The translations under genes were made by a program, and so were the position numbers. A DNA stretch of 64,000 nt. Origin: Cyanobacterium stanieri LEGE 03274. GTDB lineage: Bacteria; Cyanobacteriota; Cyanobacteriia; Cyanobacteriales; Cyanobacteriaceae. The DNA is taken from the NCBI RefSeq assembly GCF_015207825.1, contig NZ_JADEWC010000001.1, positions 62,001-126,000 on the forward strand, given 5' to 3'. Of the stretch, positions 19,215 through 57,437 are shown one piece after another; position 1 is the stretch's first letter, and each line of letters opens with the position of its first letter. Under the pieces are notes generated by a model. It searched no databases. It was not told where the DNA came from and saw only the letters and a list, made by a program, of their open reading frames with translations.

Positions 19215-19739
19215 ATGATTAAACTAGACTGGCGAGAAAGGGCGATCGCCCGTAAAATAGAACAAAATCCCTATTATCGTTTCCAAAATCTGTCTGAAAT
19301 TAGAGTAGGGGCAAAACTAGGTATTTCTATAGACGTAAATCAAGCCTGTGTCGATGATTGGTTAAGGCTTCCGGGGATTTCTATTACCCAAGCTCGTACC
19401 CTCGTAGAGATGAATAATTCGGGCATTCAAATCCTTTGTATAGAAGATTTAGCCGCCACCCTAGGCATTTCCGTAACCAAGATTGCTTTTTGGAAACCCA
19501 TTCTTAACTTTTCTTATTATGACCAAAATAGCTTCCATGCACCTCCAAAAATAAACCCCAATACAGCCACCCTAGAGCAACTAGAAGCCATCCCAAACCT
19601 TGATCATGACATGGCCTCTAAAATTATCAAAAATAGAGAGGAGGAGGGCAAATATCGTAATTTACCCCACTTACAGCAAAGATTATCTTTATCCCCTGAC
19701 TTTGTTTATCATCTCATGTATTATTTCCAATTTGATTAA
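19215..19739 (+). CDS. Helix-hairpin-helix (ComEA-like) protein
   Basis: 174 residues with two HhH units. The first is around VDDWLRLPGISITQARTLVEM (residues 46-66) and the second, with the classical INPNTATLEQLEAIPNL pattern and ASKIIKNREEEGKYRNLPHL, spans roughly residues 112-150. Such domains bind DNA through the backbone; in ComEA they serve DNA uptake. No signal peptide or membrane anchor is visible, so a cytoplasmic role is likely and competence is not implied. The frame ends shortly before the convergent ExoD-like gene. Confidence 0.75.
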   Translation: MIKLDWRERAIARKIEQNPYYRFQNLSEIRVGAKLGISIDVNQACVDDWLRLPGISITQARTLVEMNNSGIQILCIEDLAATLGISVTKIAFWKPILNFSYYDQNSFHAPPKINPNTATLEQLEAIPNLDHDMASKIIKNREEEGKYRNLPHLQQRLSLSPDFVYHLMYYFQFD

Positions 19740-25354: not shown

Positions 25355-25903
25355 TTAATTGATACCCAATAATTCCACATCAAAAATCAGAGTAGCATTA
25401 GGAGGAATGACACCACCAGCGCCCCTAGCCCCATAACCTAAATCTGGGGGAATAATGAGAGTAGTTTTGTCACCAATTTTCATATTAGCAACCCCTTCAT
25501 CCCATCCTTTAATAACTTGCCCTACTCCTATGGTAAAGGTAAAAGGTTGGTTTCTATCTTTTGAGCTATCAAATTTTTTACCTCTCTTATAACCTTCTTC
25601 TGCTAAATAACCAGTGTAATGCACCGTTACTTTTTGCCCCCTAGTGGGAGATTCTCCATCCCCTGCCTCAGTTTGCACAGAAATTAAACCAGTAGAAGAA
25701 GTTTGAGCGTTAGATAAATCGATTTCCATATTTCCTGTTTCCATAAGTTGACTTGCACTAGCCACCAAAGTGGGTGACTCTGCCTGAATTTCTTGGGTGG
25801 TAGTTGATGCCACCGCACTGGAATTATTGTTAAAAATCACGGAGAAAATTAACATCCCAGCACATACAAAAATAATGCCTAAGCTAATGACAATCGGTTT
25901 CAT
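25355..25903 (-). CDS. FKBP-type peptidyl-prolyl isomerase
   Basis: 182 residues. An N-terminal hydrophobic segment ([21 protein letters not shown]) acts as signal or membrane anchor, followed by a low-complexity linker of about 50 residues and one FKBP domain (residues 75-182). The domain has [43 protein letters not shown] and [20 protein letters not shown], all conserved in active FKBPs. It should assist proline isomerisation of exported proteins in the periplasm or thylakoid lumen. Single gene on the minus strand next to the Argonaute gene, with 163 bp between. Confidence 0.92.
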
Positions 25904-26066: not shown

Positions 26067-28256
26067 TTAAACGCTAATGAGTTTTTCCCTATCTACATTT
26101 TGTAAAACACTCACACTACCCATTCTTTGCATCTCCTTACTACTCTTATCCGCAAGATGTAACACCCAAGGCAAACGAGAGGCACTATAACCACTAGCGG
26201 GGTTAAGTTGGGCGAGATGATAGGTTTGTAAGGCAAGAATATTCAAAGGCGCATCTCCATATTCATGGATAACCTTAAGGGGTTTTACACTACCGATGTT
26301 TTTATTCACAGGTTGATGGGTGACGATGGAAAAAGACTTACTGTTATTCATAAAAAAAACTGTGCCGGATGGGGCATCATAATATTTATCGCTTTGGGGG
26401 TTAAAACATCCCATTCTACCTGTGCCACTTTTTCTCACACTGAGGATGTCGAGGGCTATTTGTTGTTGTTTTAATTCCTCTATGGTTAGGCTAAATTCTT
26501 CTTTTTGCACTAATCCATCTCTCATAATTAAGATTCGGTGGGGATAACGATCGCACTTATGATAAAATTTCAAAACTAGGTTAGAAATTATTTGCCAAAC
26601 TACTTTCCCTGAAATAGCCTCTCCCCGTTGCACATCGGGCAATTCCCATCCTAAACTTTGCCCATCGGCTAAAATAGCATACGCTGGAGTACCATAGTAT
26701 AACTGACGATTTGTCCCTGTATCAAAGCCAATAATTAAGTCCGCCGTTTGAGCATAGTTAGAGGGCTTTAAATGCACTGTTTGCCATTGGGCTTTACACA
26801 ATAATCCTAACACCACATTAGTGGCTTTGTAAGCGTTTGCCTTGGGTTTTGCAATGATAAATTGTGTGGCAATACCTGCACTAAAGGCAGATTTTCTAAT
26901 CTCAATTTTTTTTGTATTACCTAAACGCTCTTTTAACACTACTAAAACTGTTTTAATACCCTCATCTGCCCATTTTTGCCAAAACATTTTTCTTTCTAAA
27001 TCATGATGGGGAAAATCTTGAGCATTGCGATAGGATTGATAATTAATTTCAACATCACTACTTCTAGCAATATCTAATAAACATTTTTCTACTTCTGCAG
27101 GATATTGATGCGCGTCATTGTATAAATTTAAACAACCTAATTTTAATTCCCCTACCTTTGCACAGCCTTTTTGTCTTACTTGACTAACTTTATTTACCTT
27201 TCCTTTTTTAGCTAAAATTTCTGCTTCAGGTAATTTAAAACCAGTCACTTTTATGGCTTCACATTTGTAGTTTTTATCATCAACTTGATAGATTTTAGTG
27301 GCAATTTCATTAGCAATAAAGGTAGATTCATCAATACGTTGTTGGAAAGATTTTTTAATCAGTTGAAATACTTCTTGAACTTCTTTTTTTTCCTCAAAAT
27401 CTGTATTTTCTGCCACATGGGCTAACATTTCCATGGTAAGGGAAGGAGATACTCGAGAGGATAAATGGGGAATTAATTGATTATTAAAACCATTGGCTTT
27501 TTTAACTAAAATTAACTGAGAATTCTTGATTTCTTTTTCTGTTGCCCCCCTTTCTCGATGATATTGTGCAAGGCTGGTTTGGGTATTTTCAATCATCATT
27601 GTTTCTGGATTTTCATCGGTGATGTCTTTTAATATCCAGCTAAGATATTTACCCTCTATTTTGTAAGTATTTCTCATATACTTAAAAGGTGCATCGGGAT
27701 ATTTCTCTAACCATTGTTGTAATGTCCAAGGGGTATAAAAGCGATGATGGCTATCGATTTCCAAGAATAGTCTGCCATCGGCGGCAATATCTACATCTAT
27801 TTTTTTTCCTCTATGTACTTCCCAACCTTCTCCATATTTGGCTGTGCCTTCTTGCCCTGTTATCCACCATATAATTCCTTCGTTGGTTTTTTGGATGGCA
27901 CTATGTTTATGTTTTTTTAGTTGTTTATATAGGTTATTTCTTTCTATTTTTTCGAGGGCTTTTCTTTGGTTTAAATTATCTGGATTTAGTGTTATTTTAT
28001 TAATTAATTGTAATGTCCAATTTTCTGTAGATAGTTTTTCTTCGTCTATTTCTTCTCTGGTAATAATGGTATTTTGAAATATTGCTCCTACTACTTTTAT
28101 ATCATACAAAATACGGGCGATCGCCCTTAATTCCTGTCCTGTTTCGCTCCATTGATGAAATGAGCATTGATATTGATAAACTTCCCTTTCTTTTTCCGAT
28201 AATTGTTTAACAAAAAACTTATTTAAAACTAATCCAACCTTAGTTAAATGAACCAC
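26067..28256 (-). CDS. ago: Prokaryotic Argonaute (long, catalytically complete)
   Basis: 729 residues with full-length N, L1, PAZ, L2, MID and PIWI layout and close resemblance to the Synechococcus elongatus Argonaute, a DNA-guided DNA nuclease. Shared stretches include GLVLNKFFVK at the N terminus, GWEVHRGKKIDVDI and HHRFYTPWTLQQWLEKYPDAP in the first half, and RLPWVLHLADKSSKEMQR near the end. The PIWI tetrad appears intact: D512 (IGFDTGTN), E546 (QRGEAISG), D580 (LIMRDGLV) and D703 (HLADKSS). The MID region holds KGCAKVGELKLGCLNLYN. The GTG at 28256 is the likely start, with AGGG upstream. Neighbours are housekeeping genes (fkbp and cobA); no accessory nuclease, helicase or Cas4 gene is adjacent. 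Likely role is defence against plasmids or processing of replicon ends, by analogy. Confidence 0.95.
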   Translation of the reverse strand: MVHLTKVGLVLNKFFVKQLSEKEREVYQYQCSFHQWSETGQELRAIARILYDIKVVGAIFQNTIITREEIDEEKLSTENWTLQLINKITLNPDNLNQRKALEKIERNNLYKQLKKHKHSAIQKTNEGIIWWITGQEGTAKYGEGWEVHRGKKIDVDIAADGRLFLEIDSHHRFYTPWTLQQWLEKYPDAPFKYMRNTYKIEGKYLSWILKDITDENPETMMIENTQTSLAQYHRERGATEKEIKNSQLILVKKANGFNNQLIPHLSSRVSPSLTMEMLAHVAENTDFEEKKEVQEVFQLIKKSFQQRIDESTFIANEIATKIYQVDDKNYKCEAIKVTGFKLPEAEILAKKGKVNKVSQVRQKGCAKVGELKLGCLNLYNDAHQYPAEVEKCLLDIARSSDVEINYQSYRNAQDFPHHDLERKMFWQKWADEGIKTVLVVLKERLGNTKKIEIRKSAFSAGIATQFIIAKPKANAYKATNVVLGLLCKAQWQTVHLKPSNYAQTADLIIGFDTGTNRQLYYGTPAYAILADGQSLGWELPDVQRGEAISGKVVWQIISNLVLKFYHKCDRYPHRILIMRDGLVQKEEFSLTIEELKQQQIALDILSVRKSGTGRMGCFNPQSDKYYDAPSGTVFFMNNSKSFSIVTHQPVNKNIGSVKPLKVIHEYGDAPLNILALQTYHLAQLNPASGYSASRLPWVLHLADKSSKEMQRMGSVSVLQNVDREKLISV

Positions 28257-28337: not shown

Positions 28338-28453
28338 AGCATTGCACGGGTTATGGTATGAAATATGGTTGAATTACACTAAAAACCAAGACTTCTAAAT
28401 ATTATAACCGTTCCCTTCCTCAACGAGAAATCATACCTAAAATCGGCAACGCT
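28338..28453 (+). repeat. Dispersed repeat family B, complete copy
   Basis: 116 bp bounded by AGCATTGC and GCAACGCT, imperfect inverted repeats. It matches, in opposite orientation, the element at 57323-57437 over its whole length, including TTCCCTTCCTCAACGAGAAA and GGTATGAAA. No open frame inside. It lies upstream of the Argonaute gene. Confidence 0.75.
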
Positions 28454-28524: not shown

Positions 28525-29289
28525 TTAACTAAATACCATATCGCTTATTGCTTGTCTAAATGCCACCACTTTACCAATAACAGCAATGGCAGGGGCTTCA
28601 AATCCTGATGATTCTACTTTCTCAATGATATTTTCCAGATTACCATATAACTCCTGTTGATCGGGACGTGTACCCCAACGAATAAGCGCTATTTGGGTTT
28701 GGGGTGTCAACCCTGCCTCCATTAATTGGGGAATAATTTGATGAAGGTTATGGATTCCCATATAAATAACTATAGTTTCCGAACCACGGGCGATCGCACT
28801 CCAATCCACATTAGGGCGATATTTTCCCACCGATTCATGGCCGGTAACAAAAGTAACCGATGAACTATAACCCCGATGAGTAACAGGAATACCGGCATAA
28901 GCAGGAGCGGCAATACCAGAAGTAATCCCCGGTACCACTTCCACAGGAATCCCAGCTTTGATTAAATCCGCCATTTCCTCTCCTCCCCGACCAAAAACAA
29001 AGGGATCTCCCCCCTTCAGGCGTACCACTATGGCGTGTTCACGGGCTTTTTCGATCAAAATTTCATTAGTTTCATTTTGGGGCAAAGAATGGCGACCACG
29101 GCGTTTCCCTGCGTTGATTTTTTCGGCGTAGGGGCTAATAATATCTAAAATTTCTGGACTAACTAGGGCATCATACACCACCACATCTGCCAATTCTAAC
29201 AGTGATTTTCCCTTAACCGTAAGTAATCCGGGGTCCCCGGGACCTGCGCCCACTAAATAAACTGTTCCGATGAAAGAATTCTGACTCAT
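28525..29289 (-). CDS. cobA: Uroporphyrinogen-III C-methyltransferase
   Basis: 254 residues. The SAM-dependent enzyme methylates uroporphyrinogen III at C-2 and C-7 to precorrin-2, leading to siroheme and cobalamin. Diagnostic motifs are VYLVGAGPGDPGLLTVKG at the N terminus, VRLKGGDPFVFGRGGEE, VVPGITSGIAAPAYAGIPVT and YMGIHNL. There is no fused CysG dehydrogenase or HemD domain. Siroheme is needed by nitrite and sulfite reductases, which fits an organism with narB. Single gene. Confidence 0.96.
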   Translation of the reverse strand: MSQNSFIGTVYLVGAGPGDPGLLTVKGKSLLELADVVVYDALVSPEILDIISPYAEKINAGKRRGRHSLPQNETNEILIEKAREHAIVVRLKGGDPFVFGRGGEEMADLIKAGIPVEVVPGITSGIAAPAYAGIPVTHRGYSSSVTFVTGHESVGKYRPNVDWSAIARGSETIVIYMGIHNLHQIIPQLMEAGLTPQTQIALIRWGTRPDQQELYGNLENIIEKVESSGFEAPAIAVIGKVVAFRQAISDMVFS

Positions 29290-34146: not shown

Positions 34147-34641
34147 CTACCCTTGAATTGTATCAATGATACTCAAAAGTTCTGAGAGTTTTTCCTTAAC
34201 TGATTCGTGGGAGTATTCGTCTTCAGGGTGCGCTGGTTGTCCTGGTTTTTGGAAGTAAGGGCGATCGCCACTTATTTGCCCAGACTTAAGGTCAACCCGT
34301 CTCACAAAGTCATAATATAAATTATCACTCTCCATAATCTCCTCAATAATAGCCCTCAAGGCCGATAAAGGATCAGTATCATGGTTACCAATTTTATTAT
34401 CCGCCCCATCCACCATATCTTGTAATACAGCCTGTAGCGCTCCAGAGCTATCCCGAAGATTATTACTAATAAATAACTTGATTTCCGTTTTCAACCTAAT
34501 AATAAAAGGCACGGGAGACTCTCCCTTAAGAAACCCTCCTCCTTCTTGCCCAATTAAATCTGCCAAAGAAAATTGTCGGCCTCGCAAAGCATCTCGACGC
34601 AATTCCAAATCCTTTTCTTTATCTTCCTCTGACTTACTCAT
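34147..34641 (-). CDS. Conserved hypothetical protein (164 aa)
   Basis: A soluble, acidic 164-residue protein. It opens with a charged helix (MSKSEEDKEKDLELRRDALR), then ADLIGQEGGGFLKGESPVPF, a helical core and a C-terminal helix ending in IDTIQG. The pattern resembles a family found in many cyanobacteria with no assigned function. No motif points to catalysis. The start ATG at 34641 is the first in frame. It may share transcription with the glycosyltransferase gene 111 bp upstream on the same strand. Confidence 0.65.
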   Translation of the reverse strand: MSKSEEDKEKDLELRRDALRGRQFSLADLIGQEGGGFLKGESPVPFIIRLKTEIKLFISNNLRDSSGALQAVLQDMVDGADNKIGNHDTDPLSALRAIIEEIMESDNLYYDFVRRVDLKSGQISGDRPYFQKPGQPAHPEDEYSHESVKEKLSELLSIIDTIQG

Positions 34642-57277: not shown

Positions 57278-57322
57278 ATATTAGGTAATGGGTATTAAGT
57301 GTTAGGTAACAATGTTTTTTCT

Positions 57323-57437
57323 AGCATTGCTGATTTTGAGTATGATTTCTCGTTGAGGAAGGGAACAGCTATAATATTTAGAAATCTTAGTTTTCAGCAT
57401 AATTCAACTATGTTTCATACCATCATTAAGCAACGCC
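57323..57437 (-). repeat. Dispersed repeat family B, complete copy
   Basis: 115 bp bounded by AGCATTGC and GCAACGCC. Reverse-complemented, it aligns over its full length with the element at 28338-28453. It fills most of the space between the convergent ends of lpdA and narB. Confidence 0.78.

Follow-up and report, generated by a model that had tools for sequence, protein, structure and literature searches.

A locus in the cyanobacterium Cyanobacterium stanieri LEGE 03274 raises the question of whether an Argonaute gene that lies among housekeeping genes belongs to the core genome of its host or is an accessory gene lodged there. In the window, the 64,000-nucleotide stretch of this genome that was analysed, the gene (ago, 26067-28256, minus strand, GTG start) is an open reading frame free of internal stops that encodes a long-A prokaryotic Argonaute (pAgo) of 729 residues. 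The PADLOC pAgo model matches residues 8-729 (E 7e-261), Pfam PAZ_3 is matched with E 1.4e-23 and places the PAZ domain at about residues 181-271, and among solved structures a TtAgo chain is matched with E 6.8e-61. The Pfam Piwi model, in contrast, stays below threshold on the protein and has zero matches in the whole genome, a sensitivity limit of the model rather than an absence of the domain; the PIWI assignment therefore rests on alignment and fold. An AlphaFold2 model, computed within a set of 28 sequences from the window and its relatives, has a pLDDT of 86 and a pTM of 0.83; the highest-ranking PDB matches to it are without exception complexes of TtAgo with guide and target (E ~1e-58, TM-score 0.7-0.8). 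The full-length PADLOC match, PAZ_3 and the whole-chain match of the model to TtAgo place N, PAZ, MID and PIWI in one chain. The original prediction of a 729-residue Argonaute is thereby borne out far beyond chance, alignment and fold leaving no doubt about the identity of the protein.

The catalytic residues D512, E546, D580 and D703 align in register with D478, E512, D546 and D660 of TtAgo, forming a DEDX tetrad at exactly the positions first proposed. The tetrad is invariant in close relatives of the protein and keeps its register across the aligned relatives of the S. elongatus Argonaute (SeAgo) type, with exceptions at the last position only, which is H in two of these and, in another whose frame is truncated, is not covered by the open frame. 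In the MID domain, R418, K422, Q433 and K457 of the TtAgo 5'-phosphate pocket correspond to K450, R454, Q465 and K488, so that a pocket for the guide 5' phosphate is retained with two conservative changes, and the C-terminal valine aligns with that of TtAgo as well. Alignment and modelling of the PIWI site had been proposed as a check on the catalytic assignment; the alignment puts no acidic residue out of register, and the model is confidently TtAgo-like. All features of a catalytically complete long-A pAgo that could be examined are present in the protein, and, judged from sequence and predicted structure, the gene looks functional and catalytically competent.

The closest relative is the Argonaute of the congener G002 (L036:5739-7940), at 60% identity, followed by several other cyanobacterial Argonautes at 54-55%. 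L096 from genome G409, which we provisionally take to be the S. elongatus Argonaute, matches over its full length at ~49-50%. The close resemblance to SeAgo that had been proposed thus holds for the type of protein but not for its degree, other cyanobacterial Argonautes being closer. In a tree of 35 rows with TtAgo set as outgroup, the protein falls inside a cyanobacterial clade, here called SeAgo-type, with the Thermosynechococcus and probable S. elongatus proteins, and forms an exclusive sister pair with the G002 copy (SH-aLRT 100). It shares with SeAgo the domain order, the tetrad, the clade and a stand-alone gene, but differs in host, in gene neighbourhood and at half of its residues. TtAgo, the best structural match, is 27% identical over its full length and aligns at all catalytic and guide-5'-end residues, although it is distant, belongs to a thermophile and is encoded on a plasmid. 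The genus also holds a stand-alone pAgo gene of another type, in G003 (L040:11283-13472), whose product is related only across its PIWI part, at ~30% identity. Within L040:10783-13472, this G003 pAgo gene starts right after a 69% homologue of window gene 34147-34641, a gene whose product has no Pfam match that lies ~6 kb from ago and is present also in the Argonaute-free genome G001. A Thermosynechococcus MAG carries two equal-scoring Argonaute copies ~13.7 kb apart on one contig (L066 and L067), a duplication or an assembly artefact, and in the Gloeomargaritales genome VI4D9 (G427; L100 / L080) the Argonaute lies in two separate pieces, corresponding to residues 4-202 and 205-729, and may be disrupted.

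The gene order on the minus strand is a cobA-type methylase gene, ago and an FKBP gene, with intergenic gaps of 268 and 163 bp. The upstream neighbour (28525-29289, minus strand) encodes a cobA-type uroporphyrinogen/tetrapyrrole methylase (PF00590, E 2.1e-52), and the downstream neighbour (25355-25903, minus strand) an FKBP-type peptidyl-prolyl isomerase (PF00254, E 3.4e-36), in agreement with the original assignments. Farther out lie genes for valyl- and histidyl-tRNA synthetases, NdhN, triosephosphate isomerase, a MiaB-type radical SAM enzyme and similar proteins. A PADLOC scan of 20 neighbouring proteins returned no convincing defence match, the sole listing being a marginal CasR match within the valyl-tRNA synthetase. 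Because these 20 neighbours include no convincing defence protein, ago is a stand-alone gene, as had been proposed. The claim that it does not belong to a mobile defence island likewise stands for the present state of the locus: composition is ordinary, and the flanks hold neither defence nor mobile-element genes, only a short non-coding repeat upstream. In the same region, 19215-19736, ~6.5 kb from ago, encodes a small protein that carries a ComEA/T2SSK-type helix-hairpin-helix motif, possibly, from its sequence, a competence-type DNA-binding protein.

A search for partner genes among the ORFs of ~30 Argonaute loci revealed no recurrent partner, save contexts common to small groups of relatives, namely three Thermosynechococcus genomes and three Leptolyngbya-like genomes with a DUF433-like neighbour. 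Since these shared contexts are local only, the Argonautes have no general partner. A functional link of ago with FKBP or cobA was considered and rejected, neither gene adjoining Argonaute in relatives. The DUF433-like gene is small and of antitoxin type, and it lies 115-440 bp behind the Argonaute gene in the Leptolyngbya-like loci (L065:12606-12848, L069:12281-12511 and L070:12328-12558); at L063, a homologue is found far from Argonaute.

The uniformly housekeeping character of the window neighbours, together with a composition of ago that matches theirs, might suggest a core housekeeping Argonaute that sits between cobA and FKBP because of a conserved role in the cell, and the gene had been described as core-genome-like on first inspection. 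Its distribution leaves this reading next to no credence. SeAgo-type Argonautes occur in three of 15 family genomes, the source genome (G000), G002 (60%) and G006 (~50%); among the same 15, G003 carries the pAgo of another type. The complete genomes G001 and G004 contain neither the SeAgo type nor the G003 type, even though they are the closest sisters, with FKBP proteins 96% and 93% identical and cobA products 94% and 91% identical, respectively, to those of the source genome. No remnants of ago were found in the corresponding regions of these sisters. At greater distance, 30 of 390 genomes in a class sample carry the SeAgo type at 1e-20, and 12 of 386 genomes in a phylum sample give matches at E 1e-5, of which eight are full-length SeAgo-type proteins. 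(In the contig scan, a single-protein query gave no match, but an alignment query did.)

Gene order points the same way. A cobA orthologue is present in all 15 family genomes, yet cobA and FKBP are non-adjacent in every relative that carries both on one contig; they map to 311 kb and 849 kb in G001 and to 3017 kb and 140 kb in G004. The cobA-Ago-FKBP order is private to the source genome, and the comparison of cobA-FKBP synteny that had been suggested therefore turns against a conserved setting. What the sisters do keep are a TIM-DUF4336-FKBP block and a cobA-GGDEF/EAL-MiaB block, both of which stop exactly at the side that faces Argonaute in the window, with a continuation that differs between G001 and G004 too. 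Because the blocks end at this side and cobA and FKBP lie apart in relatives, the housekeeping setting of ago is a junction produced by rearrangement in this genome alone, within a genus whose gene order is fluid. Related Argonautes adjoin different genes in most genomes, so that neighbours vary among the ~30 loci: the gene adjoins glpX and crtE, rather than cobA and FKBP, in G002, and a PIN-domain gene and hisB in G006. The case opposite to a core gene had been framed as disruption in sister strains as part of a variable island; the gene is indeed missing from sister strains, but its place is unlike a defence island. Being lost in complete sisters, ago is dispensable, and it is a relocatable accessory gene outside the conserved core genome.

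The repeat upstream of ago, also noted at the outset, is a MITE-like dispersed element of ~116 bp (28338-28453, strand not assigned) that starts 82 bp upstream of the ago start codon. It has imperfect terminal inverted repeats (AGCATTGC...TTATGGTATGA / TCATACCTAAAATCGGCAACGCT) and an internal GTTCCC(T)-type tandem of variable length, and it folds with a z of -3.2. Thirteen aligned copies share sharp common ends, which confirms the exact ends of the element. Match pieces number 55 in the source genome, 12 in G001 and 17 in G004, and the repeat is a genus-wide short interspersed element. A second window copy lies near 57322-57423 on the minus strand.

How an accessory gene came to be present in one species and absent from its nearest sisters is a separate question. 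The SeAgo-type family itself is mobile: in two genomes of different families, G098 (f23) and G546 (f28), the Argonautes are 86.6% identical and MiaB 70.6%, and this excess shows that the family has moved horizontally between cyanobacterial families. Such mobility, the absence of ago from the two nearest sisters and an identity to the G002 protein of 60%, compared with ~87% for FKBP and cobA, would all fit a recent independent acquisition from an unsampled cyanobacterium, the kinship with the G002 copy then arising only from similar donors. Synonymous sites tell otherwise. Divergence of ago from its G002 counterpart (pS 0.585, fourfold difference 0.52) equals that of the host genes FKBP (pS 0.553, fourfold 0.516) and cobA (pS 0.632, fourfold 0.596), and Argonautes of other families lie above it (pS 0.65-0.80, fourfold 0.63-0.70). 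The exclusive, fully supported pairing with the G002 copy speaks against such an acquisition, as does the lack of mobile-element genes beside ago, and no compositional sign of recent transfer is seen, base composition and codon usage lying within ~1 standard deviation of window genes. A dN/dS of ~0.27, compared with roughly 0.06-0.08 for the neighbours, means that ago is under constraint.

The gene thus does not look freshly acquired, and the common ancestor of the source genome and G002 probably already carried it. Read most simply, these patterns describe a gene long resident in the genus, whose protein has evolved fast or in a relaxed manner within the limits of purifying selection, and which has changed place and been lost from G001 and G004. 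Vertical descent is nonetheless unproved, because synonymous sites are near saturation and a transfer within the genus would look alike. G002 is a MAG with a completeness of 63%, and its species position comes from FKBP and cobA alone; with this incompleteness and the saturation of synonymous sites, independent acquisition, although unlikely, keeps a real minority share of the weight.

The closest relative studied in vivo is SeAgo (PMC10653904, PMC10269773). In S. elongatus it reduces natural transformation and keeps RSF1010 from being maintained, and a strain deleted for it grows normally and shows raised transformation (PMC10653904). By analogy, we consider it likely that ago encodes a stand-alone, competent long-A Argonaute of the SeAgo/TtAgo type that would use DNA guides to cleave single-stranded DNA and so limit transformation and foreign replicons, as an accessory function probably inherited vertically with losses. 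Guides would be short 5'-phosphorylated DNAs, of 14-19 nt as in SeAgo, derived from single-stranded or stalled and broken DNA, and the PIWI domain would then cleave matching single-stranded DNA. The expected net effect is restriction of transforming DNA and of foreign or multicopy replicons, with chromosomal replication sites partly sampled. No dedicated partner gene would be needed, guides probably being supplied by the protein's own activity and by general recombination nucleases. Activity, guide type and targets we infer from homology, and at an identity of 50% the target preference of SeAgo need not carry over. The host encodes the competence channel ComEC, which makes DNA uptake plausible. 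It also has three cas1 loci, so that the contribution of the Argonaute to defence may be small, one layer among several.

In E. coli, the 14-19 nt DNAs bound by SeAgo are enriched for plasmid and ter sequences, and the protein aids division under gyrase inhibition (PMC10269773). These observations, together with the lack of defence genes near ago, favour a main role in chromosome replication or segregation rather than defence, a role reported both for TtAgo and for SeAgo in that host. Such a role is rather improbable here: loss in complete sisters shows that ago is dispensable, SeAgo gives S. elongatus itself no protection against ciprofloxacin (PMC10269773), and the SeAgo deletion strain combines normal growth with raised transformation (PMC10653904). 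A bolder conjecture, to which we give very little probability, is that a genus-private, long-resident, fast-evolving and partnerless Argonaute beside three CRISPR (cas1) loci has drifted from SeAgo in its guide or target preference, for example towards palindromic dispersed repeats such as the one upstream of ago.

A patchy presence of pAgos, the lack of fixed or consensus operons, disagreement with host phylogeny and horizontal spread have already been published (PMC6299218, PMC10653904), and current ideas on these proteins are unchanged by the ago gene of this genome. A literature search that combined the genus with Argonaute gave no result. With this gene, a clade of which few members have been characterised gains a further mesophilic DNA-guided nuclease, probably active as judged by sequence and model, and closely related genomes that carry or lack it offer a natural comparison for effects on transformation and plasmid load.
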